Of a stretch of 64,000 nt of DNA, positions 39,501-64,000 are shown piece by piece; the stretch's first letter is position 1; each line of letters opens with the position of its first letter. The notes under the pieces are model-generated. The model was not told the origin of the DNA. It saw only the letters and a list, made by a program, of their open reading frames with translations, and did no database searches. The stretch spans positions 66,109,554-66,173,553 of the forward strand of contig OX485803.1 of NCBI GenBank assembly GCA_950295325.1, written 5' to 3'. A program made the translations under genes and the position numbers. This DNA is from Polytrichum commune (Eukaryota; Streptophyta; Polytrichopsida; Polytrichales; Polytrichaceae).

Positions 39501-39720
39501 TAAATACGACTGCTTCAATTGGAAGCAAGCCTTGCTCAAGGAGAGGATTCCTAAGAAATACACGGGGGGGGGGGGAATCAAAATTTGGCACCTTCTTAGA
39601 GGTATTACACTTTGAACTCTATGGATTGAACACAACGACAAAGTGTTCAACCATGAACAATAACATGATATTAAACATTATGGCACTTTTGGGAGTCCCA
39701 AAATTGCAAAACACGTGAAG
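36560..39720 (+). mobile_element. L1-like LINE, internally deleted and broken
   Basis: Three recognisable pieces lie in order on the plus strand. ORF1 DUF4283-type region spans about 36600-37058 (LIAKFLGSKPALQDMERWLQ, WGTCTIQSWIPGFNPDNPNN). A zinc knuckle lies at 37079-37125 (CKACHNWKHRVRDC, CX2CX4HX4C). The ORF2 endonuclease start lies at about 39000-39150 (LNALTPKVDIVMIQKHKPRG). The sequence then jumps to the C-terminal zf-RVT region at about 39300-39700 (KQCVMCLPNTSELVKHKIRDC, RRAWRWATSIMHELCG). The rest of the endonuclease and the whole reverse transcriptase are missing, and several stops break the frames. A G12 run (39564-39575) interrupts the last part. The element cannot move on its own. 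Confidence 0.75.
36600..37432 (+). pseudogene. LINE ORF1 remnant (DUF4283 plus CCHC zinc knuckle)
   Basis: The DUF4283-like domain ends at a stop after ILSFEHHV (37059). The knuckle follows in a different frame from 37077. In intact relatives these are one protein, so a small deletion or frameshift near 37060-37076 separates them. ORF1 proteins of this type bind the element RNA. Confidence 0.65.
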
Positions 39721-39738
39721 TTTGACCAAAATTCAACG

Positions 39739-39898
39739 TGGGAACGTGTATGTGAACGCCATCTGGACCCCGGGAACGTTCATGGGAACTTCAGTGGGAA
39801 CATGGGAACGTGCAGGGGAACTAGATTGGGAACATGGGAACGTGTGTGTGAACTCAGTTGGGAACGTGATGAACGTGGGAACGTTCATCGGGAACTTC
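39739..39898 (+). repeat. Cluster of GGGAAC words
   Basis: Eleven GGGAAC words, mostly followed by GTG, GTTC, ATG or TTC, lie in 160 bp just past the LINE 3' end, spaced irregularly at 9-30 bases. It looks like a decayed short tandem repeat. No protein is supported. Confidence 0.6.
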
Positions 39899-40286
39899 TT
39901 CGTACAAATGCCCGTGTTTGGGACATAACGTTGACTATTGTACACCGCTTACACACAATACTCACAATATTCATTATTAGTTGGCAAAGTACAACATTAC
40001 ACATCACATATGTAGCTTGGGGCATGACACATTCTCGAAAATGCGAGGAAATTAATGTTCAAAAGCCCTACATTGTGGTTTGTATACATTACATTAATGC
40101 GTGTACACCACACATGGAGGTATGTCATTGGTTGCAATGTGCACATATAGCAATATTGCAAGTATCAACAAATAAATCCTTCGTTCGGTTCAAAAAGGAC
40201 CGCCCTATCACCTACCACAAAACACTAGGATCTTCACACTTGCTCCTCTAATTCCGTATGCCCTTGGATTCCGGTGGCTTTGATCA

Positions 40287-43200: not shown

Positions 43201-43534
43201 CACTTGTCTTCCACACAATCCATTGGATTGACATTATGGCAAATTCCTTTTGCCACATTTTGTCCGGTCGCGTTTACAAGCATCACAGGAATGTTCAGCC
43301 ATTCCTCCCTTCTAAGCCCGCTGCAATCTACATCAATGTCCTCAATGCCAACATCGGCCTCGTCTTCCGTGAATACCGCTTCAGAGAGTGATGATCCCTG
43401 CATTGTAGAATCATGTTAATATGTTTACCCTTAACGTAAAACCCCTAATACCACATTAAATTTACATCACATTGCAAACTACAACAATAACTCACCTCCT
43501 CGGAACTCAAATGCTCTAGTTCCATTTGCTCCAT
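40287..43534 (-). pseudogene. DUF7869-type putative transposase gene, multi-exon, with two in-frame stops and a frame change
   Basis: Exons: 43534-43496 (MEQMELEHLSSEE), 43397-42437, 42266 to about 41065, and 40985-40287; most junctions have GT-AG sites and keep frame. Exon 2 carries a Cys-rich finger (ECCDRECTRYF ... VVTLCGRNVCEKAWRHIFAVS, KTTFYR). Exon 3 has a second Cys pair (ARCGKCDSF) and then the core: TIIHDKMDHGK, MAHGHGDERYAHYALD, ILHVQLDNCWKDNKCRFVKAF and LLVGHTHDDIDASFGRWS. LDNCxxDNK and VGHTHDDID are the hallmark acidic motifs of this family, probably a DDE-like nuclease core; I infer a mobile-element origin. Damage: a frame change near the A8 run at 42947-42954, TAG at 42054-42056 between HQV and QESARNAY, and TAG near 41148 after KSNIKG. 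The last exon ends in a Gly/Arg-rich tail. Confidence 0.75.
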
Positions 43535-43736
43535 TACCCTGATAACAACACACGTAACTTCATTAATCAATAAAGATGTTGCCCCTCACACGCACGAGAA
43601 CTAACACCACAATATCTACCTAACCTGATAGCCCATTTGCATCCGAAACCTATATTAATATGACCAAAAATATAGCCTTTTATTAACCGTGTCTTACGTA
43701 GAAACTTAAACCCTAAACCCTAAACGCTCTGAATTG

Positions 43737-43762
43737 AGGTTCCACTCGCCCGAGTGGAACCT
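43737..43762. repeat. Palindrome core P1
   Basis: 26-bp palindrome with arms AGGTTCCACTCG / CGAGTGGAACCT around CC. Compared with the common core (AGGTTCCTCTCG / CGAGAGGAACCT), a T-to-A change in the left arm is matched by A-to-T in the right arm, so pairing is kept. It lies about 200 bp upstream of the DUF7869-type gene, next to a telomere-like CCCTAAACCCTAAAC. Confidence 0.85.
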
Positions 43763-44228
43763 GCTTTACCCTGAGTGTTTGTTGGTCCTACTACCCATCA
43801 GAACCACCACCCAATTAATACATGATACATCATCCACTCGTATCAACAACCTTAGGTAATAAATAGCCTAAAATAGCCTAAACCCTAAACCATGCTTAAC
43901 TCGAAGTACTAAACATGACGAATTGCCAAGATTCGACTACAAATTTAAAAAACTCATTCTCATTTATGGGTGTTGCTCCTGACACGCATCAGACCTAACT
44001 CCACCCGTGTCTATTTTACCCATTACATAACCCAGTTGCATCCGCCACGTTTCAGTAATGTTCGAATAATTATGGCCTTTATTTTACCATGCCTTCCCTT
44101 CATGAAGGGTTAGATGTCTTTTGAGGACATGTTAAACGTGTCTTTTGAGGTGTCTTTTGAGGTCATGTTAAACAAGACATCTTTTGTCGGCAACATTTAA
44201 CACGACCCTGACACCTAAAATGGTGCCG

Positions 44229-44455
44229 AGGTTCCTCTCGGCCGAGAGGAACCTCCGTTGCCAAGGGCCAGCGTTGGATATCCAGAATCTGGCCTCTAGG
44301 TTCCTCTCGGCCGAGAGGAACCTAGGTTCCTCCTTGGAGCCTAGATATCCTCTAGGTTCCTCTCGGCCGAGAGGAACCTAGGTTCCTCCTTGGAGCCTAG
44401 ATATCCTCTAGGTTCCTCTCGGCCGAGAGGAGCCTTGGATATCCAAGGCTGGCCC
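44229..44455. repeat. Palindrome array A (cores P2-P5)
   Basis: Cores at 44229-44254, 44298-44323, 44354-44379 and 44410-44435 (the last with one mismatch). The last three are in a 56-bp tandem repeat whose linker reads AGGTTCCTCCTTGGAGCCTA then GATATCCTCT. The array ends with a second, different perfect palindrome, AGCCTTGGAT joined to its own complement (about 44432-44451). Confidence 0.9.
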
Positions 44456-44876
44456 TAAACATAATACTTGTCCACAAAACCCTAAACCCTCTATCCATAC
44501 AATACGGCGAGACAATCACTTCAAGTTCTAGGTCAGTTGCAGTTTCCAGAATTGGAGTTGAGATGCAAAACGTATGACAGGTCAAAGTCTATATTCCCTT
44601 TCTCCCAATATAGGCCCACATAGCAATTACACAAGCCCGTGGTTGGGAAATGAAGATAGTCAATTAGGTGAACTATACAAGCACAATCTGCTATGCCTCC
44701 ATGTTATCTATTTGTTACTCTCCTTCAGGTGTTCCATCACAAAATTAGCCGAATGAGCTATTAGTTGACCTGTCTGATCCCATATAGGAATTTGAAATCA
44801 CAATTCCGAGAGTGTAACTTCACTCCTGTACAACTGCATTGGAAGACATTTGATGTAGTCAAGATCGAGGTTCAAA

Positions 44877-44961
44877 TTATAAAAAATATTTCCATTGGAG
44901 ATAGGGTCTAAGTTGTCCATGTTCCCCACATGAAATTCCCGTCACATACAATCTGGCCTCT
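44877..44961. other. Linker between palindrome arrays A and B
   Basis: Short AT-rich stretch. Together with 44456-44876 it holds no gene. A 219-codon minus-strand open frame from 45536 to 44877 exists only because the palindromic repeats are free of stops. Confidence 0.5.
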
Positions 44962-45101
44962 AGGTTCCTCTTGGCCGAGAGGAACCTCGGCCAGCCTTGG
45001 ATATGAAGTCTGGCCTCTAGGTTCCTCTCGGCCGAGAGGATCCTCGGCCAGCCTTGGATATGAAGTCTGGCCTCTAGGTTCCTCTCGGCCGAGAGGAACC
45101 T
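44962..45101. repeat. Palindrome array B (cores P6-P8)
   Basis: Cores at 44962-44987, 45019-45044 and 45076-45101 in a 57-bp repeat. The linker CGGCCAGCCTTGGATATGAA then GTCTGGCCTCT is related to the flank of core P3 in array A. P6 has one C-to-T change at the central CpG-rich part and P7 has one arm mismatch. Confidence 0.9.
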
Positions 45102-45780
45102 CGGCACCCTATCGCAGTGGTCCGTACAATTGTACGGACTACACGCTTGCATCCTAGAATTGTACTGTAGAGACACCCCCCCACACCAGCAAGAAGCAGC
45201 AGGCTGAAAACAAAGTGTTTGTGAAACCATTACGGAGCTGAGGGACTGGTATCGGAGAATGAAGAGCTGGTGTGGCACCAGCGCAAGGCTTAAGCCAGTG
45301 AGGGACTTAAGCAGAAGCTGAGGGACCAGGGGTGGATGGTAACCAGACAGAGTTTGTGGGCGGCCACCAGGAGCGTAGAAGACAACTGGGAACGGGAACG
45401 ACCATGGGAACATGAACGGCCACTGAGGACGAGGACGGCCATCGGCCTCTGAAGTTAGCAAACCGGTTCGGGACGGCCGAACGGAGGTAGAGACGAACTG
45501 GTTTGAGCCTCGGACAGTAAATGTAAATAGGACCATTGTGAGAAGCGTAGAGGCGCGGTCCTATTGCCGTGTTTAGGAACACATGTGTAATAAAATTAGG
45601 ATGAATGAAATTCCAACTAGGGTGATAGGAAAAGTTATGTACGTAGGTAGTACATATTGGACTATTTGGATTCAAACTCTATGAATTAAGACATTTAAAC
45701 TCTGCTATAATTAGATTCAGTGCTAAATTTAGCCGAGCTAACATTTACAAAAATCCTAGGAAAACGTAGATTTGTGAGAC

Positions 45781-45788
45781 TATATAAG
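45781..45788 (+). promoter_or_regulatory. TATA-like box upstream of a tandem array
   Basis: TATATAAG in the context GACTATATAAGGAGGCC, 80 bp before a 53-bp tandem array. The order (TATA box, then transcribed tandem repeats) is like that of the hAT element, so this may be the promoter of an unrecognised element. No gene was found downstream. Confidence 0.3.
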
Positions 45789-45864
45789 GAGGCCACTTGA
45801 GGGCCCTAATACACTTCATTTCGTCCCGAATATTATACATGAGTGTCCGGACCTCGGACTTTGT

Positions 45865-46106
45865 TGAGACGTGAGGCACCCGTGGTGCAAATTAACTTGA
45901 GAGCTAAAAGATTACTTTGAGACGTGAGGCACCCGTGGTGCAAATTAACTTGAGAGCTAGAGAATTACTTTGAGACGTGAGGCACCCGTGGTGCAAATTA
46001 ATTTGAGAGCTAGAGAATTACTTTGAGACGTGAGGCACTCGTGGTGCGAACTAACATGAGAACTTGAGACGTGAGGCACCCGTGGTGCAAACTAACATGA
46101 GAGCAT
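45865..46106 (+). repeat. 53-bp tandem array, five copies
   Basis: Units start TGAGACGTGAGGCACCCGTG at 45865, 45918, 45971, 46024 and 46065 (the fourth unit is shortened to 41 bp). Copies are 90 percent or more alike. Each contains the inverted words GGCACC and GGTGC. Confidence 0.92.
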
Positions 46107-47395
46107 TCGTGAATGCAAGGCAATCGCACTCGACCTCAAGAATTACCTACGGCTTAGGGAATTGAAGAAATTACTTTGCGGCCAAGTTATGGGTTGAAGA
46201 AGAAGGGTGTATACGTGCACGTTCATCGGAAACTTGGAGGATTAAGTTTACCACATTAAAAGGCTTTGCATTCACAACCTATACAAAATTATACAAAAGT
46301 AAAAGTAAAGATTGAGGGTAGGAGGATTGGCCAAGTGGCTAGTACCGGCTTACTTGGGCAAGGTGTATCGACTCGGAGATTACACCTAGACCGTGATTAC
46401 CTCTTTCCAAGTGAAATCGGATTTGAGGTAATTGTAGGTGTAATCTACTTGAGTGGTACCCCAAGTCATCGAGCGCTAGGAGATGATTCAAAGGGAAGGG
46501 CTAAGCCGCCACCTCGCCTTCACATCACCTACCTTACCACATATAGCCTAAGGAGAGAATTTCCGGTAGCCAAAGGGGGACACTCGGGAATTAAGCAAAG
46601 ATTCGTAATGCCCCTCGGAATGTAGGTAAATATTAATCATACACCTTTGAGTGGTAGCGGATTATTATTCCGTGTGGACAAGAGAATCAACAAGGATTCT
46701 TTACCTTCAAGTGTTATTAGGTGATTTGGATATAGTGAGGAAATACTTATCCCTTGATACCGAACGTTTGACAAAGAATCCGATACTTGGGAACATGAGG
46801 GGATGATAAATATTCTAAGAGAGTAAAACATTTTAGGAATTAAGTGGCTTTGACTTAGTGAGGGAGAATGCTTGTCTTATGGAGAAATTGGGCAAGATGC
46901 TTGAAGACTTGAATGGAACGAGAGATATGTTATAAGAACTTGAATGGATAAATAGGATTGTGAATAATTTCAAACCATGAAAGATATTGTATAAGAGCGT
47001 TTCCCCTCTTAACACTTAACCGTGACATTACACTTCTGGGAAAACATTAGCTTGAGTTCCAAGACACTTACTCAATAGGAATTCGTGAGAGAATTATTAA
47101 GAGATATTGAACGTGCATTTACGTGTTTCCTGTTAAGGACACTTTAGGGGGACATAAACTTGTAAACTTAGATCAACTATTCCTAGAGAGTTTATAAGTA
47201 CATTGAAACTATATTACGGGATTGAGACACAGAAGATTGCAAACACCTTCACGAGATACAGGAACTAAAGAAGATCTAATTTTGGTGGGAGTAACTTCCA
47301 TGTAAACCGGTTCAGCAGCGGGTTACACCGTCTAAGGCTGGAAGGTTGAAGGTGGCCTCCCAACATGTACATACTACACGTAGGGCATATTTTTT
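46107..47395. other. No confident gene
   Basis: A 119-codon plus-strand frame at 46266-46625 has no recognisable domain. Given the TATA box and array upstream it could be a leftover of an unknown element, but I see no support beyond length. Confidence 0.35.
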
Positions 47396-47480
47396 CGGGG
47401 AGCAGTGGCTCAGGCAAAGCATGAGCTACTTGGGCCGGCACCTGCTAAAACCAGCATGTGTGGGTTCTGAACGCATGGAA
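47396..47480 (+). mobile_element. Possible SINE head
   Basis: An A-box-like AGTGGCTCAGGCAAAGC (about 47405) is followed after some 55 bases by a B-box-like GGGTTCTGAAC. No tail or target duplication was recognised. Confidence 0.3.
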
Positions 47481-47791
47481 TGGCAACAATGAGATATGGA
47501 AATGCTTGAAGAGTGAGCCACAAACGGTTGGAGGTATGGACCTTATATAGTAGTGTCAATTTTGGTTTGGTGGGAGACTAAGTTTGGGTACTAAAATATT
47601 TGAAGCTTCCCTCCCTATTGTACGGGGTCCTCTCTTGTAGGAGATATCATGGTTTGAGGTGTGGTAGTAGAGAATGATCGTTTGGCGAGTTGATGTGCTC
47701 CCTAGTTGATAGTACTTATAATGTACATTCTCCATTACCTTCCTTTGATTGCCAACGGCATGATACAACGAGATTTAGAGTGTACAGTCTA

Positions 47792-48172
47792 CCCTCTATA
47801 GATGTTAACCCTCGGGAGTGAATCAAAGTTAACATTTATAAAGGTGCTAATAATTAACAATTAGAAAATTAGTAAATTGCTTTTTTGACCAATATACAAA
47901 TGTTAAGTTTATGAATGTATACAAACCCAATCAATACTTTATTCAATAAAGTTTACAAATCACGGGTGAAGTATGAATCAATGATTCTTTGGTGAAAACC
48001 ATATTGTGGTTGTATTTCATTCATTAACATTTGCAGAGTCAAATTTACAAAGGGAGTACTATTTTGTTAATAGTTGACTCGTTTAACATTTATAGTGTGC
48101 AATATGTGGGCAGTAGAAGAAAGTTAACATTTAGAGAGGGTTAATACTTATAGGTGTAACATTTATAGAGGG
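47792..48172. mobile_element. MITE-like unit with 16-bp terminal inverted repeats
   Basis: Starts CCCTCTATAGATGTTAA and ends TAACATTTATAGAGGG (one mismatch). The interior is very AT-rich with further copies of TTAACATTTATA in both orientations. No coding capacity. The target duplication is not clear. Confidence 0.5.
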
Positions 48173-49987
48173 TGGCACTACATAGATCCTCTCAAATGTG
48201 TTCATTGTTGAACATGGAGTAGTTTGATCAAATTTGAAGATGTAGTCCACTTCCCCTAAAACATGTCTTTATGGTATTTGTTCTTTGACCCTCGTTGAAC
48301 TAGGGACCGACCAACTATGGGAGTCCTATTAAGAGAAATTATTGAATAACACATGCATACGTTAGTCTAGCGCCTCTTTGATGATGTTGCCACCCATCGA
48401 AAGGGGGTCGAGTTTCTAACCTATGTGGAATCGATAAGTGTTACCACTACTTGAATTAGCACAATACCCTACTCCATAGACTTGAGTCCATATTCATGCA
48501 TTTCAAACGTGTATAGTGAAAAAGAGCCAATTGTAAGGGGTGATGATGGGCATCAAAGAAGAACGGCTTTGCACCCACAAATTTGGGCACTTAAGTGAAG
48601 TTAATGGGGCCCACAACCATTTGCCGTGCTTTGTGTGTGTTGCATGCTTAATTATTAAGATTGCTACACCGAGAATTATTAAGGTTGTTCCAGGAAGGTG
48701 CACAATTACCCTTTGCATGCGGATGGGTGGGAAGTCATGAAGAACGGCGGCATATTCCTCAATTATTAGTTATATATTAAAATTTCACCAAGTTAGAACA
48801 AACTACTTGTGCACATCGCATTGCATGGCTTTGAAGCCTCTATGGGCTATAGTTAATGACATACTGGCTTTGCGGGCCCAATTAGCATGGTCATGTGTAG
48901 TCAAGTTTCATGATGGTCTTGTGATTCTTCTTTGCTACCCTGGCTACATTATAAATACCTATCGCACAAGATGATTAGGTATATGTTATGTAAGCAAAAC
49001 CATTGTATCATCTTATATATGTAATCATCAAGAAGTTACGTGGGGTCATATCCCCAACGTTAGTTTCTAATTGAAATGTCGAACTTTCCAATTAAAATGT
49101 CGAAGTTTCCATTATATTGAAGCAAATACTTCGTTTCTAATTAAAATGTCGAACTATTAAAGTATGACCTATTTTAGCAAACTATGTTTGTTGGATTGTG
49201 TGGAAATTAATGTATATACAAATCCTCCGAACTGTGTTCACTAGCAAGTGTAGATTAGTTATTAATATTGGAAGAAAGACGCGATCCATTGTATTTTAAA
49301 CATGTGTCTTCATGATGTTTGCTTTGTGATCCTCATTGATCTGCATACCTGGTCCAATCAAATATATTAGGTGTCCAATTAGGAAAATGTGCCACTTAAG
49401 ACCTAGTATGTACCTTATGGACAAAAATGCCAGTGCCTCCTAACTGTGCCTCAATTTTGTCGGAGGCAGATGACTCAGATGACGCAAGAATGATAAATAA
49501 CCATACTCCTAGTAAGATGACTTCGTAGAAGTACAAACTCAATTTCATGAAGGTTCCAAGCTACTTCATGGACTTAATAAACGTTAGCAAAGTGTTCTAT
49601 CGATTTCATGGTAGGGGGCCTTAAATTAACTCTAGCAGCTTTTTGGATCTTTGAAACCAATTTCATGAACTTCAATTCTACCATGACGTAGACAAATTTA
49701 GTAGACGTCCCATGTGAAGTGGCTCCACAAGTCTATTTATCAACCCATATTAATAGTATCTACATTACACTGGAAGGTGCGGTAGACTAGAGTACATTGC
49801 TATTCTCGCATATTATTACCAGTTTAATTTTATAGAGAGAAATCACTACTCAAACATTAGTGAGCACTCTAGGGCCCTTCTCTGGGGTTTTGCTTTAACA
49901 AGAAGACTCTAGCATCCCAATAGCTACTACAACTAACTAGCAAAACAACATCGTATCTTTTCACCAAACTACTTTCAAATAGACACA
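48173..49987. other. No gene seen
   Basis: AT-rich intergenic DNA. No supported coding region. Confidence 0.4.
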
Positions 49988-49990
49988 TCA

Positions 49991-50327
49991 TAGTAGAAAA
50001 TTATGTCAAAAACAACCGCAACCAAAATTGGTTGCGGTTATCTTGACCAGCGTGATCAACAATTGCTTAAACACTGCATATTTTTTTCTTGGTTAAGCAA
50101 CCAAAATTTTAAGTAATTTGTATTTGTGTAATAAATTGTTGGAAAGGTCTTGAAAACACCTTTCCAACGGTATATTACACGCTCTAAACGTCATGAAATT
50201 GTTGTTGTAAAACTATATATATATATATATATATATATATGTAATTGTTTAGCAACTGCAGATAAGGCTAGTCAAAAGAATCTCAGCCGATTTTGGCTAC
50301 GGTGTTTTTGGACATAATTTTCTACTA
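49991..50327. mobile_element. MITE-like foldback unit, 337 bp
   Basis: Ends are inverted: TAGTAGAAAATTATGTCAAA on the left and, read on the other strand, TAGTAGAAAATTATGTCCAA on the right. TCA flanks both sides (49988-49990, 50328-50330); the duplication could instead be TA. An internal hairpin pairs GTTGGAAAGGT with ACCTTTCCAAC (about 50139-50172), and an (AT)n run lies at about 50213-50240. Non-coding. Confidence 0.65.
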
Positions 50328-50330
50328 TCA

Positions 50331-53300
50331 TGAGCACCAATAAATATGGGAGAATTGCAAAATATCATCGTCTATCCAATTGGGAAGAGAGATCTATCCT
50401 TAGTGAAGCGCACACATGATCGGCTGAAATGATACGGGAGAACTGACCAATAGTTACAAATGCACATGTTGAGTTTGAGAAATAAATGTTTGAAGTTCAA
50501 CGCTTCAACATAATTATCGATCTTGTGAAATAACGTCAGAGGCCATTTGGTGGCGTTGATGTTTTGAAGCTACCGATCTTGTAGAGTTGAGTTTGAGAAA
50601 TAACCGGTTGGACTTGCAAACACTAGCATTTTGACCGATCATGCCCAAAAATCCCTTGGACATTAGCGTGCTACGTATCTTCCTCACACATCATGTTCCT
50701 AAACCCTAAATTCATACACTCTATAAGCAATCTTCAAAACATTTCAAAGGAAAAAGAGAGAGAGCCACTCACAACCTAGCCATGCCACGACACCACTTGT
50801 GTAATCACAACCTAACCAGGCCATCACAACACACTCAAAACTACCACACCCCTAGGAGTTCACACACCCTTTTTAGCCACACTACACTTGAGAGAGATGG
50901 GGCGAAAATGAGTCCTCTTTAGCATTTTGGGAAGGGCATTCCTCCTTCCCTAAGGGTTTCCTTTTATGCATGAAATATTGAATGTTATAAATAAAATTAG
51001 TCTCAATATTTGGGATGATGGGATTAAGGTCTCTCCCAAAGTGTGTGGGCCTTTATATATATATATATATATAACACCCCACCCTACTTAACCTTATGGT
51101 ATGTTAGTTTTGAAAATTCTCTAACATGGTCAATTTGTAACCACCCTAATTTATTTGTATTGCAAAGTTCAATATATAACTTGGTCATTGTTACAAATAT
51201 AGGTTTTATAATTTGTATGTAGCAACTTCAAAGTGGACTCCACATGGTTCTCACATAGTTTTGTAAAATATGGGAGTGACCCCCCCCCCCCCCCCGCCTT
51301 CTCCACATGAAAAAACAAAATGAGGGAAATTATACCTAGCTACATGTGACAACTGGTTCCTTGTACAAATGAAAATGAAAATGAAAATGAAAATGGTTCA
51401 TCTTCATCCACTATCATGGATGTTTTTATAGGACACATTTTTATCTTGTCAGCCCTAGGATATTTGCCTCTGCATTTTAGTGGCTTTTGCATTTTGTGTA
51501 TTTATCATCCTCGTTCGCATGGCACTATGCATTTTGAATGACTTTGATGAGGTTTTCAGGGGTGGGGTTTTTTCAACAAACATATCCCTCAATTTATGCA
51601 ATAGTACAATTTTTCTAACTAACTATACGGTATCTTGAAATCAATAAATGGCGTATATATACTACCATGCACCAAACTTCTCCCCTTTTAATTAATAAGC
51701 TCTAAACGCATGGGTCCTAAGTGCTAGGTGATCAACTTGAGTCCCTTACTAACCATCACGGTGGGTGTAAAAGGCCCCCATACATGAGCCATCAATGGAA
51801 AAACTCAAGAACCTCAACATACCCAAAAAATAATGAAATCCTTATACCAACTTGCCATAAAATACCTCACCTATTCAATCATATACAAAATAAAACTAAA
51901 AGTAGTCCATTGACAAACCACCATAGAACCCTGTTAAAATACCTCAATACCACCCACACACCCTCAACTACGCCCCCACCCCTCTCTTCAAACTTCCACA
52001 TAGAGCCCACCTTTCAAAAACAAAAACGGGTAGAGACCTCACCTTACATCATGGACACCCATTATCTACGTTAGGAGAATGGGCTCATATTTACGCTAAG
52101 GTAAGAGGAGGCCACTTAAGTTAGCTTCCTATTGGACACTTATATTTGGCTTGGAATTGGCAATATTGTTGCTTTAATTCCGTGGGTGAGTAATACATGT
52201 TGATTTAGCCACCTTTGCAAAAAACAAACTACACCTATCATCCTTCATAATTAGGAGTGTTATCCACCAACCTATGACACATTTGATTTTGTAAGTGAAG
52301 TGGGCAAATTAAGAGGTTGCATATGGTTGTGAGGTGCCAACCACTTGCATAGTGGGTATTTTATAATGATAACCTAATTTGGCAACATTTCATCTTATTC
52401 ATGACCACTTTAAAAACATGACACAACAAATGTTGGCATTAAACTTCGTTTTCATTGACAAATGACCCATGTAGAATTTGCTAGTGTCGCCATCCACTTA
52501 CACAACATTGCACAATGTAAGAGTTGCTTGCTTTAAAACCAAATTGGAAAGTAGAGAATCTTTTATTCCAGAGCCTAGACGAACACCTTCCTCAACTCCA
52601 ATTTCAACAACTTTAGATTGCTTGGTCATGATTCGCAATTGTTATCCTGCTCAAGCTTCTAATGCTCGAATCCATCACCTAGATAATTTTAAGTAGGCTA
52701 GAGGTTTCCACAATAGCCTCATCAACCTTAGTGCATGAACACCAATGTTTCAACATTTTTAATATATATTCTACATTCCATACTTGCTCACAATTATCTT
52801 CCTCTTGCATGCTACATTGTAATACATGACACTTGGGTGTGTAGTTAGGATTTTAAATAAGACATAAAGCCAATGAAATATTCAAGGAAGACTTCAAAGG
52901 TGATTCCGATATCATCTTGGTGTCACAAATTAATTTCACTAAGACATTCACATGATTAATTAAGGTTGTTTTGGTTTTGAATCGGTGTTTGGATGATGAT
53001 TCATAGGATAAAGTCTTACAAACTCTTACAACAATACATGCAATCGTGGTTGTCTCTCAATTCACACTATTTGCCCACCCAAGAGCTTGGCAGTGAGTTG
53101 ATTTCATTTAACAAACCCCTAGCAAAAGAAACTAAACATCTTTGAAAGCTGCATTACAATTGACTGATGGAGAGAGCATCCCTTGTAGGTTGGTCACCCA
53201 AACTCAACTACCCCCAAAGAACGCCCAATTTATGGTAAAGGATAGTGTTTTCTTGTCATCATGTTTCTCATTATCGTTTATTAAGGTTTCGAACCCTCGA

Positions 53301-53920
53301 TCTTCATCTCACAAAAAGCCACACGCCCCCCCCCCCCAAGAACACTAAGTTGAAGTCACACCCAACCCAACTCCTCATTAACACACTTAATAACCTCTCA
53401 CCAAGACCTCTCCCCAAATGTCCCATCTAATCAATCCCTACCTAAGATACAAAACCATTCATAAAGCCACGGTCACAAAGTTCCCCACCAAAAGGCAGTA
53501 AACACCTACATGTGAAGAAACTCTCTATTTACATTTGCTCGCTTGCATAAGAAGTTGGTGATGCTATTTATCTATTTGCATGTCAATCTTTCACAATGAT
53601 TACTTGGTCAACCTTTAATTATTGAAAAGCCAAAGCGCTTACAAAGTCTCTACATATGTCTTAAGTACTAAACCTACCTAATGTCCATATTTGAGCACAT
53701 ATAAGTCCAATCTTTTCTACACACTCTCTTTCTACCTATGGGGGGGGGGGTGGGTTTTTCTTAGCTTCACACCTATTCACACAAATAAGTGAAGGCCCTA
53801 AACGTCCAAACAACCTTTTCAACATGAGTGATTATGAACTCATAAGTAATACATTTGAATTGCCCAATGGAATAACAGTACATCGTGCGATGCCAAATAT
53901 TAATGTTAAATAATGTTAAT
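50331..53920. other. No gene seen; microsatellites and homopolymers
   Basis: Contains (AT)n at 51053-51071, a C16 run at 51280-51295, a (GAAAAT)n run at about 51369-51393, a C12 run at 53326-53337 and a G11 run at 53740-53750. A 50-bp phrase at 50603-50655 recurs, diverged, at 54065-54116. No supported gene. Confidence 0.5.
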
Positions 53921-53925
53921 TCTAA

Positions 53926-54048
53926 TAGGGTTTAGGGTTAAATGTAATAGGGTCATATATTTGCGTGGTGTTTTTATGGTTATTATTTTAAAAATTAAAA
54001 TTCATGTATTTGCCAAATCCTAAACCCTAAACCCTAAACCCTAAAACC
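53926..54048. repeat. Interstitial telomere-like repeats, opposed
   Basis: TAGGGTTTAGGG at 53926-53937 and CCTAAACCCTAAACCCTAAA onward at 54019-54048 are short runs of the plant telomere repeat facing opposite ways, about 80 bp apart. Too short to be a telomere. Confidence 0.7.
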
Positions 54049-56500
54049 AAACAATCACATTATGGAACCGGCTGGACTTGGAAACATTGGGATGTTGACC
54101 GATTATGCCCAAAAATCAGACCGGCCACTCCCACCATCATGGAAGGTTCGCACCCACTTTCTAAATTCACTGTCGGTCCAACAAATCATTGGCTCGGATT
54201 CCACTAATGTTATGGGTCCACAATGCCATGGGTGCATCTTAAAAACATAATCATCCTTGAGTGTTGCTAACCACAATTTCAGTATTGAGTACATGTTTAA
54301 TACATGGAAATGGGTCATGTGTTAGTTATTGGCCCAGGGGTGATGAAATATCATCTTTCCCCATCTTCAATTGTTTTTATGAACAACAATGGGTATTATA
54401 AGATAATACTAGTTGTGACCATGAGACCCCATTTTATTGATGTTGTCAAGAAACACTTGGAAATATTGTGTAATAACACATCTTGGGTAGTAAAAATTCA
54501 CGCCCTACTTTTGGGGTCCATTACTAGAAGCAAAATGAATTAGTATATTAGGTGATTGACAAAGAAGTGTGTGCAAGAAACATTACCACTACTATGATAA
54601 TGATTTACATTACTATTTGTTTGAAGTTATTTTTCAATAGAAAATCAATGCAAGCCACATTCATTGTATTGCTCAAATCTTAATGTGGTTAATTATTTGT
54701 ATTTTGTGCTTCTTTTTATGTAAAATAACATTAATTTTAGTTTATGTACATTATGGCATTACTTGATGAAATAGAACGCCCTATATGGTAGGTGTCTAAT
54801 GAAAAAAATTAACCGAATTAGGCCCGAGTTGATGTTTATCGCATGGAAGGATAGAATGTATTTACCACCAAACGAAATTGATCCTTATTAGGACAACCAT
54901 ATTTGTTGCCACTGACTCTCACCACCTTTGACGCACATAACATTCGGCCGTTACTTGACTATTCATACAATATTATCCAGCTTGATAATATAAGGTAGAT
55001 GTGCATAAATCAACCACAACAATAATTTGGACATCTATATATTTGAGTAGTGTGTAACGTCGAGACCTGGAATTGGCGGCACGAAGACACGTGTTAGCAA
55101 AGATGAGGATTATGTGCTCAAAATATGCTAACCATCCTAAGTTTGCTATGCAGCACGCATCCAACGGCCAAAATGGGTGTCTTCTTTCGTGTCACTATGT
55201 AATCGCACCTCAACAAAGAAAATAAATGAATAAATCATTTTTGAGGAGCATTGTTGCTGTATGAGTGTCTTTTAAATACAAAATACACGTATCTTCTACC
55301 ATGCTCTATATCATATGTAGGTATTAAATATTTTACCAATATGGAACGTTTAAGAATTACAATCATTGAACTTTATGTCCTAGTTTTAAAGGAATCAATA
55401 ATGATATAAGAAAATAAAGACAAGTGGCATATTAAGACACTTGATGTTGCATGATGCATCATAAAAAAAGCATTAGTTAACAATACAAATTAGTACAATG
55501 CCTCATTAACTCGTATATGTTTGTGATTGAATATTTGGTATGCCTCGCTTGAAATGAACGATCTACTATCATATGGTATTCACACCTATTAATCAAATCT
55601 ATGTAAGAAACTCCCCACACACTTGATTATCATATGAGAAACATCTCGGTTTCAGCAACATTTAACAACTAGACCAAATATGATATTTGTGTGACTTACT
55701 ATTGGGATTTACACGGTGTTATATCTTTATACTGATATAATAAAATTTAAACGTTATTAGTGATTATTATTAGTGCTTATTGTTAGGGTTCAACGAGGAC
55801 AAAGATTGAATTAATCATTGGTTGTGTGAGTCGCGTCGCATAATATGACATATACATGAGTGCGTAGATTAGATTTTGTGAATCATGATCACTATTGGAG
55901 TGAATAGTGATTGTGTTTTGTACACTCATATATGACAACCACAACACTTCCGATATTGGTATGGACCCATATATGACCACCACATCAGTTCCGCTATTGG
56001 TATCAACCCTTCTCAACAAACTTCCAAATGTGCATGATGATCAACAACAGGTTGAATTCTTCTATCAAAATTTTGAGACAAGTTTTGAGACAAGTTTTGA
56101 TAATCAAATTGACAATACCGTTGATTTATACTAATACGAATCGTTTTCTCATGGTGAGTGTTATCTTTTGAGTTTTCAATCCAATCTTTTCATATAATTA
56201 AGTCAAAACTTACATGAAAATGTTAACAAATCCACATATATGTAGTACTTAATGCGTGTGTGTGTGTGTTAGTATTTAATTAGTTGCTTATAAAATAATT
56301 CCAATATGTATATGATCCATGACGTAACTTTGTAATTTGACATATAAGATATGGATTCAATTATGACAAGTGTTTCTCATTACCGCATCGAAAAAGAGGT
56401 TGTAATCTCATTCCCATCTTGACATCAGATGTCGCAGATGGAGGCATAGGGTTTACGCACGCATCCAACGGCCAAAATAAAATTAGTTGAAAGAACAACC
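54049..56500. other. No gene seen
   Basis: AT-rich. A phrase CACGCATCCAACGGCCAAAA occurs at about 55157 and again at about 56459. A 75-codon frame at 55907-56134 lacks any motif. A GT run lies at about 56257-56269. Confidence 0.4.
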
Positions 56501-56942
56501 GGGGAAAAGGTACTCAATCAACACATGTCCCATCGGCGACTTTACTAGTCGGTACACTTGTCATCATGGGAAGGTGAGTTAATCCCGACCATCCATGATG
56601 ACGGCTTAATCTGAACCGTCGATTCCGGCCAGTAGCCGTACCCGCCCGGGTGGCGTCCATTCGAATGTCGGGCGACTCCTCATTTGTGTCTTCCTCTCCT
56701 CTCTTCCTCTCCTCTCTTCCTTCCAAGTTCCACTCACACCTTCCACGCTCTCAGATTCTGAGATTGAATTGTACATCCTAAACAAGATTGTTCGACTTTT
56801 CTCTACACCTGATCGCACTCCTGGTCGCACTCCAGTTCGACTTTTCTCTACTCCAGATTGTTCGCCTTTTCTCTCTAGGTTGGGGTGCTGAGTTCCATAG
56901 CCAAGTCTCCCACAATCCTCAGCCCTCCTTTCAGCAACTTGT
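56501..56942 (+). promoter_or_regulatory. GC- and CT-rich leader-like region
   Basis: A GC-rich segment (56575-56680) is followed by a long CT-rich stretch (56680-56880) with short direct repeats (GTTCGACTTTTCTCTAC twice). This is what a plant promoter with a CT-rich 5' leader looks like. It may belong to the plus-strand gene beginning at 58921, but no transcript evidence is available. Confidence 0.3.
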
Positions 56943-57660
56943 GGTAACTCTCAACTCAATGTGTTAGGTTCATCTTCAGTATGAATGTGGTTGTGTTGAA
57001 TGTGTATCAATGTGTTTGAATGTGTTAGGTTTATCTTCAGTATGAATGTGCTTGTGGTGAATCCTACATTGATTCTGCTTGTGTTGAATGTGTGTGTTTG
57101 TGTTGAATGTGTGCTTGTGTTGAAACCCATAGAACCTGGTTTAGTTTGTTTGAATGTGTTTGAATGTGTGTGTTTGTGTTGAAACTCATAGAACCTGGTT
57201 TAGTTTGTTTGAATGTGTTTGAATGTGTGTTTGTGTTGAAACTCCTAGAACCTGGTTTGAATGTGTTTGAATGTGCTTGTGGTGAATCCTACATTGATTC
57301 TGCTTGTGTTGAATGCATGTTTGTGTTGAATGTATGTTTGTGTTGAATGTATGTTGTGTTGAATGTGTGTGTTTGTGTTGAAATTCATAGAACCTGGTTA
57401 AGTTTGTTTGAATGTGTTTGAATGTGCTTGTGGTGAATCCTACATTGATTTTGCTTGTGTTGAATGTGTGTGTTTGTGTTGAATGTGTTTGTGTTGAAAC
57501 CCATAGAACCTGGTTTAGTTTGTTTGAATGTGTTTGAATGTGTGTTTGTGTTCAATCTGGTTGAATGTAGGCAGGGTTTGAATGTGTTTTTTGGTTGTGT
57601 TTGAGTACCTAGGGGTTGTATTCAATCTGTACAAGAGCTTGTGTGCTCTGAGTGTTTGAA
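56943..57660 (+). repeat. GT-rich degenerate minisatellite
   Basis: Short units of the type TGTGTTTGAATG combine into longer repeats containing TTGAAACCCATAGAACCTGG (starts near 57120, 57180, 57236, 57379 and 57494) and GGTGAATCCTACATTGATT. The top strand is strongly G+T-rich and nearly free of C outside the AGAACCTGG phrase. Cys-rich open frames across it are artefacts of the repeat. Confidence 0.85.
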
Positions 57661-57850
57661 TGTGTTATCTGATTGAATGTGTTATGTTTATGCTCATGCT
57701 TGTGTTTATGCTCATGCTTATACTTATGTTCATGCCCTTGTTAAATCCAATGTAAAACATTAACATAAACATAGAATCACATCAAATCAATCGATGAATG
57801 TAATGAGTGGTCCGAATTGTACGGAATTCCCATCCGTACACAAGTAGCTT

Positions 57851-58085
57851 TGGGGGAGGAGGTTCCTCTCGGTCGAGAGGAACCTCCTCCCCCCCTCATG
57901 AGTGAACCCTTGTGAGCCAGGGCTCACTCATGAGGGGGGGAGGAAGTTCCACTCGCCCGCGAGGAACCTCCTCCCCCCCTCATGAGTGACGCCTTGAGAG
58001 CCAGGGCTCACTCATGAGGGGGGGAGGAAGTTTTACTCGCCCGCGAGGAACCTCCTCCCCCCCTCATCACTGAGCCCTGGCTCTC
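57851..58085. repeat. Palindrome array C (cores P9-P11) with long arms
   Basis: Cores at 57860-57885, 57944-57969 and 58028-58053 with an 84-bp period. Around P10 the palindrome runs on for about 22 bases each side (TCACTCATGAGGGGGGGAGG against CCTCCCCCCCTCATGAGTGA), giving some 70 bp in all. Linkers contain their own inverted words (GAGCC...GGCTC). P10 and P11 have unpaired changes in the core arms (AAGTTCCACTCG and AAGTTTTACTCG on the left). Confidence 0.9.
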
Positions 58086-58469
58086 AAGGGTCTTCAACTT
58101 GACTATGCCTAAGTTCTTTAGGTCAAGCCTTGCGGCCGAATGTTTGTGTTTTTTATTTTTAGTGATGTAGGTTTCCAATTTCTAAACCACATTTTGTACT
58201 ATATAGATGTCCTTGTGGAGGACATGCGGTTTATTTAACCATATGCCTAGATGCGCCATGAGACTCCGTTGCATCCCCTGCAATCTCATCCGATTTTATT
58301 CATCCAAAATTTGGTTAGTGTTCCTTAAAGGATATACATCCATAGGTATGTCCGTCATCTATTTCACTTTCATCAGAGGTCTAACGCTAAACACCACTAA
58401 ATAAGATATCAAGTGTTTGATTATATCTAATGTTGCTACCACCATACCTTAGGAAGGGGTCACCGCTCA

Positions 58470-58815
58470 CAAGGGGTCAGTGATGAGGGGGGGAGGAGGT
58501 TCCTCGCGGGCGAGAGGAACCTCCTCCCCCGCTCATCACTGAGTCCTGCCTCACAAGGGGTCAGTGATGAGGTGGGGAGGAGGTTCCTCTCGCCCGCGAG
58601 GAACCTCCTCCCCACCTCATCACTGACCCCTTGCTCTGCGAGGCTGATAACCTCACAAGGGCTCACTGTGAGCTGGGGAGGTGGTTCCTCACGGGCGAGA
58701 GGATCCTCCTCCCCCCTCATCACTGAGCCCTGGCTCTGCGAGGCTGATAACCTCACAAGGGCTCACTGTGAGCTGGGGAAGTGGTTCCTCGCGGGCGAGA
58801 GGATCCTCCTCCCCT
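58470..58815. repeat. Palindrome array D (cores P12-P15) upstream of the ParB-like gene
   Basis: Cores at 58497-58522, 58581-58606, 58682-58707 and 58782-58807. P12 is the exact reverse complement of P13. Around P13 the arms read GATGAGGTGGGGAGG / CCTCCCCACCTCATC; the T that differs from P12 is matched by an A on the other side. P14 and P15 sit in a 100-bp repeat with the phrase GCGAGGCTGATAACCTCACA. The array ends 113 bp before the start codon of the next gene. Confidence 0.9.
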
Positions 58816-58920
58816 TCGCAATGTAGAAACACTATCACACCACTCTTGAGGTTCTCTTTCACACCACACTCTTGAGACTTCACACTCTTTCATACAGTCC
58901 ACATACACTAACCATTTCAA

Positions 58921-61900
58921 TGATTCGTGCAGGTGACATAGAGAGAGAAGTTTTATGGACCGATCTTGTTGGGGATATCCAAGTGGGGCCGAAGGGTGTC
59001 CACTGGGAATTAAGGGACACCCACTTGCGACACTGGTCGCTGCAAGTACATAGAAAAGACAATGAATCGCCTCTAAAATTAACATTCGCGTACCGGGTGG
59101 ACAAAAGCTGGATTCCAAACCCGGGAAATGCAATTACCTCGGCTGCTATCGGTGATAGCGACAAACTAAACGTGTCGGTCGTCGAAGGACTTGAAACACG
59201 AATTTTGTCCATCGATTGCAAGAGACACAGATTCCATATGGAGCCGTTCACGCAATCAATCTCGACGCTCCCTACTGCGGACAAAGAAGATATGGAGAGA
59301 GTGATGGGTTCTGGCATTTCCAAGAAGGCCATAAATTTTATACTTGAAGCAATAGGTGATATCAATGCAAGAGAGGCGTCCGAGAAGGAGGCGCTAAAGA
59401 AGCAAAAGAAGAAACAAGCGGAGACTCTTGTCGCTTCTAGGAATGATGGAGGAAATAAGAAGACACAAAAGAAACAGAGACCCGGAGAGGAAGCTGGAGG
59501 AACACGAGAGACTTCTAAGAGGTCTAAGAATGTTGCAGGTGACATTGGTCCGTTGGCCAGGACCCTCAACCCAACGCCAATTCTTGAGAACAATCCCGAG
59601 GAGACAACGGGCCCAAGGAAACCCCCGGCCACGAAGAGGACAACTGATGAACCCATGAAGACCAAGGCTAAGAAGATGAAGGCGACGGATGACACAGATG
59701 AAACTCCCCTAGTGCTCACTGCAGCAGAGAAGGGGAGAGTTATCGCGCAAGTTTGGAGGAAGCTGCAGCGGACCGGAAAAAGTTTGTCCAATTATTTGGA
59801 CACCTTTACCCTTCGGTGTGGAGAAAGTTTTCTATGTCCACATCAAGAAAATGATGCAAGCTAAATCTTACCAGGTTACGCGCCCACTGGATAAAGCCGG
59901 GGTAGCACTCATGAAGAACTACCTGATACAGACTCCACCGGCATGGTCTCATCACAATCTTTGCCTAATGCCGAAGCTCAATAAGGGTGAAAGATGGAGA
60001 AAATGGATGACTTGGGACGACATCAAGAATGGAAATTTTATCATTATCAACGGTCAACACAGCGTGGCTGCATCAAGGGAAATTATAGGGCACAAAGATA
60101 CAGAACAAACATTGAAAGATAAATTGAAGACGTGGCCTTGTACAATTGTCTGGAGCGAGGATCCAAGCATAACAGTCCGCCTATCTTATACCCTAAATAA
60201 CTCCAATTCATTTAACAAGTTCACCCCTACTTGGACAACCCATATTATATATTGTCGTAGAGTGTGGGTGAAACTAGGCAGGCCCCAGAAGCAACGGATT
60301 AACAAAGCCGAGGCAACGCTCGACCCCAAAATGATGGAGGCATGGAAAGTAAGTATGCATATTCATACAATGCACTTCCTCACTCCCTCCCTTCCTCACT
60401 CCCATGTAGTGCTCAAGGGAGGTTCCTCTCGGCCGAGAGGAACCTCCCTTGATAACTACATGGGAGGGATACATTCCTAAAAAGACATTACTACCTAAAT
60501 AGCAAGCTAATATGATGCCATGGTTGATTTCTTTCCCACTCCATCTCTCCTGTCTATTTCCCTTATGTTTGTATTCTAACACTTCCACATTGCAGAATTT
60601 TACAACAAGCATGGAGGCTTCGTTCACTGCCATTGCGAGAGGTATCACCCACGCGGACCTTAATGCTGAGCTCGCAATCATCATGGCCGACGATGAGACT
60701 GCCAGGTTGTGGAAGAAGATCTTCATTGCGCATGAGAAGGGGACCCTCATGAATCCCAACAAGCCAGGATCAACCTATTTGGATGAATACCTCGAAACGC
60801 AACAGAGACAACAAGTGCGTCATGAGAAGAAGAAATCGGCAACCACATTCGAGGAGAAGCCTTATGTCTGCAAACCATTAACTCGAGAAACTTTTAGGGT
60901 CTTGGCCGGTTTGACTAAACCTGACTATCTTTTGTGTGCAAAACGAATACTCGAAGTGAGGCCAGGCGAAGAGGTTCTTAGAGTGACTTTCAGGTCAACA
61001 AAGAACTCTAATGTGTCACTCTTGAAGTCGTGGTGTATCTTTAGGAAGTGGAAAAACATACTGCTGCAAGAATTGTCAGCACGTGACCCAAAAGATCTTG
61101 GCATTTGGGGAAAGGACGCGGAGGGTGCTGAGTGTCTCAACCGATCCGTTTGGTCTAAATTCAAGAAGGACCACTGTATCTCGAAGGCCAAGTGGATGAA
61201 GCTTTACCATGTTGCTACTGATAGTTGGCTGAACAAGAAGCGGATGCCCAATAACAAGTTTTTGGATCCGCCCCCAGTATGTATGCGTTTGTTGAATGAG
61301 TGGCATCATACGGACCTTGAAGAGAAAGACGGACAGGTGATTACACGATATGTCGAGTACAACGCTCTCAAAAGGAAGTTGCTGATCCCTGTGCAAGATA
61401 AGCGTGATCTTGATTGGATGTCGAAGTTCACCATAACAGGGGGGGTCATGGACTTTAGATTCATTCCAGGTTGTGTCGATCAACCAGTGTCCTCTTCGGT
61501 CGTGGAGTCCTTGGTGAAGTATTTTACGGATCCAATATGGTCTCCCGGACTCAAGACCATCCCAGCTTGGATGATTGTCTCCGACTTGCGAAACCACAAC
61601 GCAGCTGAGGAATTCATCTCAGCCATAATTCGTAAGCATCCGCAGACGTTCCTGAATATCCCGTCGGTGTATTTACCTTGTCACGCCGAGAATTATCCAT
61701 TCTACAAGGAAGTGGACTGCAAGAGGGAGTCACCGATGATTTACGTGGACTTCCTTACTTGCCCGAGCATCCTCCCGGGCCACAAAATCTTCCGATGTCC
61801 AATGATGCCGCCTGAAGCTCGGCGTTACAATGTGAACCCCAAGGAGTGGTCCGAACTTTCATACGAAGTGACCCGGGGGGAGTTGCGAATGGAGGTTTAT

Positions 61901-64000
61901 CTGTCGTTTTTCAGCTTCCTTGGAAGCACGGGAGGAGTCGTGATTAACTTATTCGGCGGCTTGAAGCCAATTGCTGCCGCATTGGTATGTTCTCTGCAAC
62001 ACCCTACACCTAGTCCCTCACTGCCTCTTTCCCCACTTAAAATCTTCCCTGCAGTGTACAAGGGAGGTTCCTCTCGGCCGAGAGGAACCTCCCTTGTACA
62101 CTGCATGGAAGATTTTAAGTGGGGAGGACTTTAAGTTTTAGAGGGTTGAAGTTTAAGGGTTGAAGTTCTTGTTTTAAATGGGTCAAGTTACATAACATTT
62201 ATATTGTTTATGTGGGCAGATGAACGACCAACATGTGTTTTCGTATATGGACTCTTGCTTTGTGCACACGCTGCCCGATAAGATTGAACACATTCGACCC
62301 CTTCGGGCAGTAGACTTCCAAGATGAAGAGGAGGATGATGCTGCGCACGGCAGAGCTTCGCAACCTCATCGTCAACAACATGCAACCCCAGCACTGTTGT
62401 TGGAGGATGCCCCCCGAGATCCTTCACCCGGTGTGGATATCGATGCCATGGACATTGATAGACACGACTCAGAGGGTGACGACTACGAAGAGCCTGAACA
62501 TGACGACGATGACAAAGAGGCGCCTAGCGAGCAGGATACAGACGTCGTTGCTAGCAGAGGGGAGGAACAACAGTTGGAATCGCAATCGGATAGCGATTCC
62601 ATTCAGTCACAAAGGCGACCGCACGATTTTCGTCATTCACCTTCCCCTTTGCAGGCCAGGGTGCTCGACTTTGCTGAGGATCCTGATCATGTCACCTCGC
62701 TGGCGGATGACCCGCTAGAGGAACCACATCAGGAGGTTGAACAGGCGGACACCCACGATGACGATGATGATGATGATGGCGGGGACGAACACGAGGGCGT
62801 GGAGGAGGAAATTGAGGTCCACGAGGAGGACCCTGATGAGGCCGTAGCGGAAGACCCTACTGAAGGGGAAGAGGCCGACCGCGAGGCCCCTGTCGAAGAA
62901 AACACAACCGAATACGTTGTGGGCACACCCGCACCCGATCTTCCAACCACCTCAGGACCACCGTCGCCACCACATCGCCATGAGAGCGGCGAAGATATCC
63001 CACCCCCTAGTCCACCGAAACCCAAGGCTTCCAAGCGAGGGAAGCACAAAGACCGGCAGTCGAAGAGACATAGTACACGGTCTCAAGAGCCGGCGATTAC
63101 AGAGACGTGGGTGGAGGAGAAAATCGTGGGCATCATGAACAGAACACTGCCCACCATGCTATCGGGCTTGCTCCAAGAAGCAATGAGCTTTGCTCGGCAA
63201 CAGACCCCTCAGCCGGTGCCGCAACCAACCCCTACAGTGGAAGTCGCCGTCGGAGCTGCCGAGATCGAGAGGGATATCACACAAGTGGAGGTTGGCGTCC
63301 AAGGAATGGAGGTGGATCGCGTGGATGGAGCCACGCATATGGAAGTTGAACCTGCAACCGAGGACACCCCCGACGACGAAGAGGCCAATGTAAGTATTCA
63401 AACCCCGTCTCATTTTAATTACTTTCTTTTGACCCTGTTCAAGTGACTGAATCTCCACCTGGATGTTTGATCCAGGTCGGAGACGGCGCGGCATCTTGAA
63501 GCCTCTTGTCGACTAGGACGCCTATTTCTTCAATACATTTAGATAGGATAGTGTAGAATTCATCCCTTGTGGGAAGATGAGGCCATATGTGCCACAATTT
63601 ATTATAAATAAAGTATAATCTTTTGGCTTGGACATGTAGTATCTATTTTGCATTCAAGTGTCTTTAATGATGTCTTGCAATTCACAGGCTTCCTTGCAGA
63701 ACCCAGAACAAGTGGATCAACCACACTTTGCAACATTGTCTCCTCGAACGTCGCCTACTATCAACGACGATCCCATGCCACTCTCGCCCGTTATGGGTCC
63801 CCTAAACGCAACGACAGCAACGGTGCAGAAGCGTGCCCCACCTACAGACTTAGACCCCTCTCCCAGTCAAGATGTGCCATCAATCATCACTATGAGTGAT
63901 AGTCCATTATCGCCAATACGATCACCGCGGACGAAAATCTTACCAACTGGTGGGACGGACTGTGTCCTCCCAGTGGCACATTGTACTGAGCCTCCACTTA
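58921..64000 (+). CDS. Large multi-exon gene with a ParB-like NGQH motif; runs off the right edge
   Basis: Exons 58921-60348, 60596-61984, 62220-63389 and 63688 to beyond 64000. All introns are GT-AG and phase 0, giving more than 1,430 residues. Start Met 58921 (MIRAGDIEREVLW). The first 160 residues are unrecognised, followed by a Lys-rich charged linker. One frame change is needed at about 59765-59781; beyond it comes PFGVEKVFYVHIKKMMQ and then FIIINGQHSVAASREIIG, like the DGQHR motif of ParB/sulfiredoxin-fold domains. Exon 2 (463 residues) ends in STGGVVINLFGGLKPIAAAL, which resembles motif I of Rossmann methyltransferases; this is a suggestion only, as I see no clear DPPY motif. Exon 3 is acidic and disordered (poly-Asp near 62755-62780), with a basic patch KPKASKRGKHKDRQSKRH that could be a nuclear signal. 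Introns 1 and 2 each hold a long palindrome. Could be a host gene or a large mobile element. Confidence 0.7.
60399..60466. repeat. 68-bp palindrome with core P16 in intron 1
   Basis: The common core (60420-60445) is extended by 21-base arms, CTCCCATGTAGTGCTCAAGGG and its near complement (two mismatching positions). It lies wholly inside the first intron of the ParB-like gene, just after a pyrimidine-rich tract ending in TAG. Confidence 0.92.
62030..62125. repeat. 96-bp palindrome with core P17 in intron 2
   Basis: The core (62065-62090) is extended by 35-base arms: the left arm begins TCCCCACTTAAAATCTTCCC and the right arm ends with its complement, with one mismatch in 35. The inner six bases of each arm (CAAGGG / CCCTTG) match P16, but the rest differ. 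The arms include a CTTCCCTGCAG acceptor-like sequence. It would form a very stable hairpin in RNA or single-stranded DNA. Confidence 0.95.

Follow-up and report, generated by a model that had tools for sequence, protein, structure and literature searches.

The window analysed here is a 64,000-nucleotide stretch of the Polytrichum commune genome whose right-hand part is occupied by one large DNA transposon with terminal inverted repeats (TIRs). This copy is 28.8 kb long: it covers positions 39662..64000 of the window and extends 4,470 bp beyond the window end, to position 5024 of L005. Its left TIR begins AACATGATATTAAACATTATGG at 39662, and a target-site duplication (TSD), CAAT, is found at 39658-39661 and again directly after the far end. 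The TIR, of about 28 bp (AACAYGATATTAAACATTATGGSACTTT), is present at both ends of the element (left, AACATGATATTAAACATTATGGCACTTT; right, read inward, AACACGATATTAAACATTATGGGACTTT). All 17 palindromes described below lie inside this element, and the window and two other clusters of the palindromic core have long common flanks with sharp ends. A perfect 4-bp TSD was found in all 12 copies of the window subfamily for which both ends were read (CAAT, CTAT, TTTG, CTTG, CATG, ATAG, ATTT, ATGG, TATT, TCTT, CAAA and CAAA). In one copy of the sister subfamily, about 21.7 kb long and with its ends read by eye from the sequence letters, the TSD was also 4 bp long (GGAT). The palindromes are therefore internal parts of a large TIR transposon family. 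An earlier note, made from the window alone, had reported no transposon ends; this holds for the palindromes themselves, but the enclosing transposon, with its right end beyond the window, had been missed.

The window copy carries a later 2.2-kb insertion (45166..47366), flanked on both sides by GTAC and absent from the two other copies compared. This insertion begins TGTAGAGACA and contains internal 53-bp tandem repeats (45864-46069). Short GTTCCC/GGGAAC repeats are located near both transposon ends (39772-39877 in the window and L005:4909-4968) and are possibly transposase-binding sites. A 5.6-kb internal-deletion derivative of the window subfamily (C3:20456397-20462014) retains intact ends and TSD with no palindrome at all; only one such copy was found, and the deletion may have happened after it had inserted.

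Gene 1 (40287..43415, minus strand) encodes a DUF7869 protein (PF25273, E 4e-42) in open frames at 40287-41018, 41148-42053, 42057-42302, 42362-43021 and 42930-43415. Among 11 sequences from the same genome, with identity down to 24%, the DUF7869 motif GHTHxDxD was invariant and the aspartate of the LDN (LDNC) motif was kept in ten. In a predicted model of low confidence (pLDDT 51), strands and helices follow one another as in an RNase H-like fold. The best structural alignments of this model were with retroviral integrase cores (Z 8.9, rmsd 3.2 over 97 residues), a score slightly higher than the Z of 7-8 commonly obtained when a model has no true match; a Foldseek search with the model gave no significant match (best E 0.03). 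Gene 1 probably encodes a DDE-type transposase, as judged from conserved motifs and a predicted fold. A match to BH1478 (0.57) was dismissed. DUF7869 is very abundant in this genome, with 1492 first-look candidates, many of them with long open frames; all 150 candidates scored passed the Pfam cut-off. None was found in 14 control genomes, and a literature search on DUF7869 returned no paper.

The gene 2 region (58827..64000, plus strand), which may hold more than one gene, consists of open frames that extend from 58827 to 68038 in extended numbering and are conserved in the sister copy. An exon ending at about 60351 contains the stretch NGQHSVAASR, invariant in 12/12 aligned copies. It is followed by an exon at 60596-61985 and by later exons, and a NIF/FCP1-like phosphatase domain is encoded beyond the window (L005:1341-2189, E 6e-9). 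Apart from this phosphatase, the gene 2 frames tested gave no Pfam match, and none gave a PDB match; the predicted model of the NGQHS exon (pLDDT 37) was too low in confidence for use. Candidate matches to Occludin_ELL (E 0.003), DUF5863 (0.01), HSP70 (0.35), AAA_lid_4 (0.13), mycosin (0.32), a zinc-finger protein (0.78) and a sulfiredoxin fold (0.85) were dismissed as below the curated cut-off or non-significant. None of the window frames located between about 47.9 and 56.5 kb had a match in the sister copy.

The 17 palindromes have centres from 43750 to 62078 and share a 20-bp core, TTCCWCTCG-NN-CGAGWGGAA. With up to three mismatches allowed, this core was found 17 times within the element, spanning 43737 to 62090, and not once in 44.6 kb of flanking sequence (39.66 kb to the left and 4.98 kb to the right). 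The 13-base arm, searched for with up to two mismatches, was matched 33 times in the window, where shuffled sequence would give 0.72; one of these matches, at 59483, is a lone arm inside gene 2. The count of 17 and their confinement to one stretch, both claimed in the earlier note, were thus borne out. The description of a near-identical core needs qualifying, since the left half is degraded in the palindromes at 57945 and 58029 and the palindrome at 43738 carries A/T instead of T/A at position 6.

The singles, tandem arrays and intron copies that had been reported are all real. Eight cores are located upstream of gene 1: a single palindrome with the position-6 A/T version (43737..43762), a group of four ending in a 56-bp tandem array of three (44229..44435), and three in a 57-bp array (44962..45101). 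Seven are located upstream of gene 2, namely three in an 84-bp array (57852..58078) and four in 84- and 100-bp arrays (58466..58814). The remaining two are in gene 2 introns, each flanked by conserved exon edges. The intron 1 palindrome (60399..60466, centred at 60433) has arms of 34 bp with two mismatches, and that of intron 2 (62030..62125, centred at 62078) arms of 48 bp with one mismatch. None of the 17 cores falls within a conserved exon. A second palindrome, GTCCGTACAATTGTACGGAC, and related sequence mark the inner borders of both array regions (45120-45139 and 57810-57839). CpG depletion gave no clear signal at the arrays: the observed/expected ratio was 0.51 and 0.45 in the arrays, and elsewhere 0.54 (left flank), 0.49 (intergenic middle), 0.65 (element as a whole) and 0.85 (a coding exon).

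The core was then sought in the genome assembly, of which seven large contigs represent 406 of 408 Mb. The 26-bp core with up to two mismatches, the search that the earlier note had proposed, gave 139 matches, showing that it is present elsewhere. The exact 20-bp pattern TTCCWCTCGNNCGAGWGGAA occurred at 400 places and its reversed control at none; the pattern ATCCACTCGNNCGAGTGGAT occurred at 62 places, again with no match for its control. Among the 50 matches listed of the 400, all on contig C1, a marker of the element lay no more than 10 kb away for 46 and no more than 35 kb away for 49, while only 1.1% of C1 lies within 20 kb of such a marker. The exception (C1:1726655-1736700) consists of tandem 79-bp units in which two palindromic cores alternate, adjacent to Copia-like open frames; the 10 kb read there (1728000-1737999) displayed no nucleotide match to the window element.

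This distribution bears on the suggestion of the earlier note that the palindromes are a new mini foldback element moving on its own. The gain of the intron 2 palindrome in the window subfamily, and its absence from the sister and distant copies read, could be taken as such a movement. However, 49 of the 50 matches listed (of 400) are in or near one transposon family. No target duplication was seen by eye at the palindrome edges of the intron 2 gain, and the intron 1 and intron 2 palindromes share bases beyond the core, as in a duplication inside the element. We consider this explanation very improbable. A MITE or foldback element was rejected on this genome distribution, the matches listed being almost all close to the transposon. 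A satellite was also rejected, the sites being singles and short arrays within the transposon, and a CRISPR-like reading found no support.

Of the 40 places located, 32 were read over the gene 2 segment (the eight left out are all of the sister type). Intron 1 contained at least one core in 32/32 of these copies, with a range of 1 to 10. Cores were present in all four groups sampled (window, sister, subfamily X and a distant group), and their number varied from copy to copy. The exon that follows reaches only 68-80% identity between groups. When the cores were masked in six query introns, no match was obtained across the window, X and distant groups; masked introns matched only within their own group, apart from the window intron, which matched six sister copies. 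The core sequence thus persists where the intron sequence around it has been lost. Arrays upstream of genes were observed in the three groups read, before both genes in the window and sister copies and before gene 1 in the more distant copy L009. The intron 2 palindrome at the window position was restricted to the window subfamily, where it was found in 9/11 copies and had been lost from the other two (L010 and L013). In three other copies (L018, L020 and L026) intron 2 is absent and its exons are joined, give or take a few bases, and another intron of 114-121 bp follows. In L029, L035 and L036, cores occur further on, in an apparent intron near the place of that follow-on intron.

The groups differ in the version of the core. 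The main versions are AGGTTCCTCTCGG/CCGAGAGGAACCT in the window subfamily, ACTTCCTCTCG in the sister and ACTTCCACTCGA in X; in the distant group several versions are mixed, mostly WTCCWCTCGA. Conservation inside the 20-bp core is partly built in by the pattern search; positions 11 and 12 are outside the search pattern. Position 6 is T.A in the window and sister groups and A.T in X and in 35/54 distant cores. Position 11 is G.C in the window and C.G in 35/39 sister cores. At position 12, the window has G.C, the sister and X groups have A.T, and the distant group has mostly G.T. Finally, position 1 is G.C in the window and sister groups, A.T in 45/54 distant cores and A.C in 6/6 X cores. In the other half of the palindrome, the changes between groups at positions 6 and 11 are mirrored; those at positions 12 and 1 are mirrored as well, with the distant group and X, respectively, as exceptions. 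In L030-L032, 11/11 cores keep A.A at position 6, that is, one A-type and one T-type half; this breaks pairing and leaves two readable half-sites. Some window arrays have unpaired centres.

All groups display high pairing between the arms as far as about position 10. Much longer pairing is restricted to parts of the window and sister subfamilies, and is longest of all in intron 2. In the distant group, pairing fades after some 11 bp of each arm in intron 1 and some 14 bp in the array of L009. A cross-copy control, in which a left arm was compared with the right arm of another copy of the same group, was mostly uninformative, as the copies are near identical.

The palindromes might act in RNA, as transcript hairpins steering splicing or diced into small RNAs. 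Two of the window sites are indeed intronic, with arms of 34 and 48 bp, and arm changes are often complementary. Pairing in a sense-strand RNA would favour G.T mismatches. Among 162 palindrome instances (cores with up to three mismatches; instances less than 45 bp from a fragment end dropped), G.T was not in excess over A.C on the sense strand, with 35 and 51 cases respectively; these counts are not independent, the copies being related. The reading as RNA hairpins is weakened by this mismatch comparison, within the limits of such non-independent counts. Moreover, 15 of the 17 window cores are upstream of predicted coding frames, distant-group pairing fades at the short distances given above, the 11 cores with A.A persist, and conservation concerns the sequence itself, beyond pairing. 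A role in RNA therefore appears improbable. Since the mismatches lack an RNA-wobble bias, a double-stranded DNA site for a dimeric protein is favoured.

The outer arms behave differently from the core. In the nine copies with an intron 2 palindrome (L010 and L013 left out), four left-arm positions are variable (22, 29, 33 and 35), all of which also vary on the right, where three further positions vary alone. The chance of such shared variable positions is 1.8e-4. Each of the four positions occurs as at least two standard pair types, with five extra types in total. Mismatched forms were also found: A.C in 5/9 copies at position 22, C.T in the window at position 29 and T.G in two copies at position 33.

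In intron 1, changes of several bases at once were found. The last right arm is GAGAACTAC in L003 and L010, with GTAGTTCTC as the first left arm. In L001, L011, L015 and L017 the last right arm is GAGCACTTC and the last left arm GAAGTGCTC, and L012 has GAAGTCCTC with GAGGACTTC. Over nine bases of this last right arm, 7/11 copies match one of their own left arms perfectly, in differing versions; of the other four, the window has two mismatches and L013, L014 and L016 have one each. These multi-base shifts toward the partner arm suggest template switching at a hairpin, selection on pairing being the alternative. The hairpin-based copying put forward in the earlier note is in this respect consistent with the outer arms, which change in step; it does not extend to the conserved core, better explained as a protein-binding site.

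The same observations could be taken further, and the palindromes regarded as a passive, functionless product of hairpins or cruciforms copying their own arms, combined with tandem duplication. Such a process would be expected to give arms that match each other within close copies, more than one base having changed at once, and a number of intron 1 cores that varies from 1 to 10. Against this, a single core sequence is retained in 32/32 copies, in one intron, across distant groups. We regard a purely passive origin as rather improbable, because neither this constant presence nor a shared core is expected without selection.

The reading we favour, with a probability of about 60%, is that the core is an operator for a dimeric, sequence-specific protein controlling the transposon, and that the long arms are a by-product. 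The 20-24 bp core would be a double-stranded DNA operator, each half being read by one subunit of the dimer. The predicted binding protein would probably be one of the transposon's own (a gene 2 product), a host protein being less likely. From sites near both promoters and in the introns, it could switch the genes of the element on or shield them from silencing, by analogy with VANC. Arrays would expand through tandem duplication, and protein and site would subsequently drift together. A simple operator would not be expected to have long palindromic arms, and these need a second mechanism; in the two subfamilies concerned, DNA polymerase may have switched template at a hairpin, copying one arm onto the other. 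From sequence comparison we infer that such a protein exists, that the element encodes it and that it acts on expression or silencing. Taken together, this unusual and well-conserved palindromic motif system of a large transposon is most likely an operator.

The core could also be bound by a host transcription factor or repressor instead of a protein of the element. Its near constancy over the entire family would fit such a factor, and none of the proteins of the element was found to have a recognised DNA-binding domain. Yet core versions differ between groups, and among the 50 matches listed of 400 the exact core is nearly confined to the element. A host factor is the less likely partner, and we hold it to be unlikely overall.

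If the core is an operator for a protein of the element, it would be a second case of motif arrays changing in concert, in an apparently unrelated transposon. This would suggest self-targeting control or anti-silencing as a general strategy of large DNA transposons, beyond Arabidopsis. The several natural pairs of core version and protein in one genome would allow co-evolution to be tested directly. Moreover, close copies at about 2-4% divergence, which record complementary arm changes, constitute a data set on template switching in a plant nucleus. A literature search for a similar plant element gave nothing matching in titles or abstract openings.

VANDAL transposons are Mutator-like elements with a TSD of about 9 bp. 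The present element is not a VANDAL, because of its 4-bp TSD and its DUF7869 gene. VANC21 target arrays are reported to occur upstream of VANA21 and within introns of VANB21 and VANC21; their copy number changes, and they diverge together (PMC5735166, PMC10398659). The VANC21 motif is described there as nine bases long, in tandem, in introns and upstream regions, and subfamily-specific (PMC5735166). The Arabidopsis arrays and those of the moss element are alike in having an element-specific motif, in tandem, in introns and upstream, with frequent gain and loss, and subfamily-specific versions that change together. They differ in that the VANC21 motif has 9 bases, whereas a palindrome of 20-24 bp is found here, in a DUF7869 element with a 4-bp TSD. 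No VANC relative was recognised here, and removal of DNA methylation, as by VANC, would be a hypothetical trait of the moss element.

CACTA/En-Spm-type transposons have subterminal transposase-binding repeats, and the likeness lies in a repeated motif, direct and inverted, inside a DNA transposon. In contrast, no core described here comes closer than 4 kb to an end of the element; the cores are found next to genes or in introns, and separate GTTCCC-type repeats occur near the ends.

ParB-parS systems use palindromic loading sites. The invariant NGQHS stretch of gene 2 is placed in what we take to be the position of the GxRR-type motif of ParB-like proteins. No significant sequence or fold match was obtained: a putative ParB/Srx-like domain in the NGQHS exon had no Pfam or PDB match, with a model pLDDT of 37. 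A speculative and rather doubtful extension of the operator reading is a control or anti-silencing system independent of VANDAL/VANC, in which a possibly ParB-like gene 2 protein would load at a palindromic core that co-evolves with it in each subfamily and spread from there, like ParB from parS, while hairpin switching rewrites the arms.

KDZ and other fungal DNA transposons carry TET/JBP dioxygenases with a proposed anti-silencing role, and Zisupton has an 8-bp TSD (PMC12730594). They resemble the moss element as DNA transposons with accessory genes, and differ from it in the nature of these genes and, for Zisupton, in an 8-bp instead of a 4-bp TSD.

Three further features were noted in the window: a single-frame protein kinase open reading frame of 917 amino acids (8784-11537, minus strand), an open reading frame with a hAT dimerisation domain (15879-16691, plus strand) and a plant-type telomere unit, AAACCCT, at 54015.
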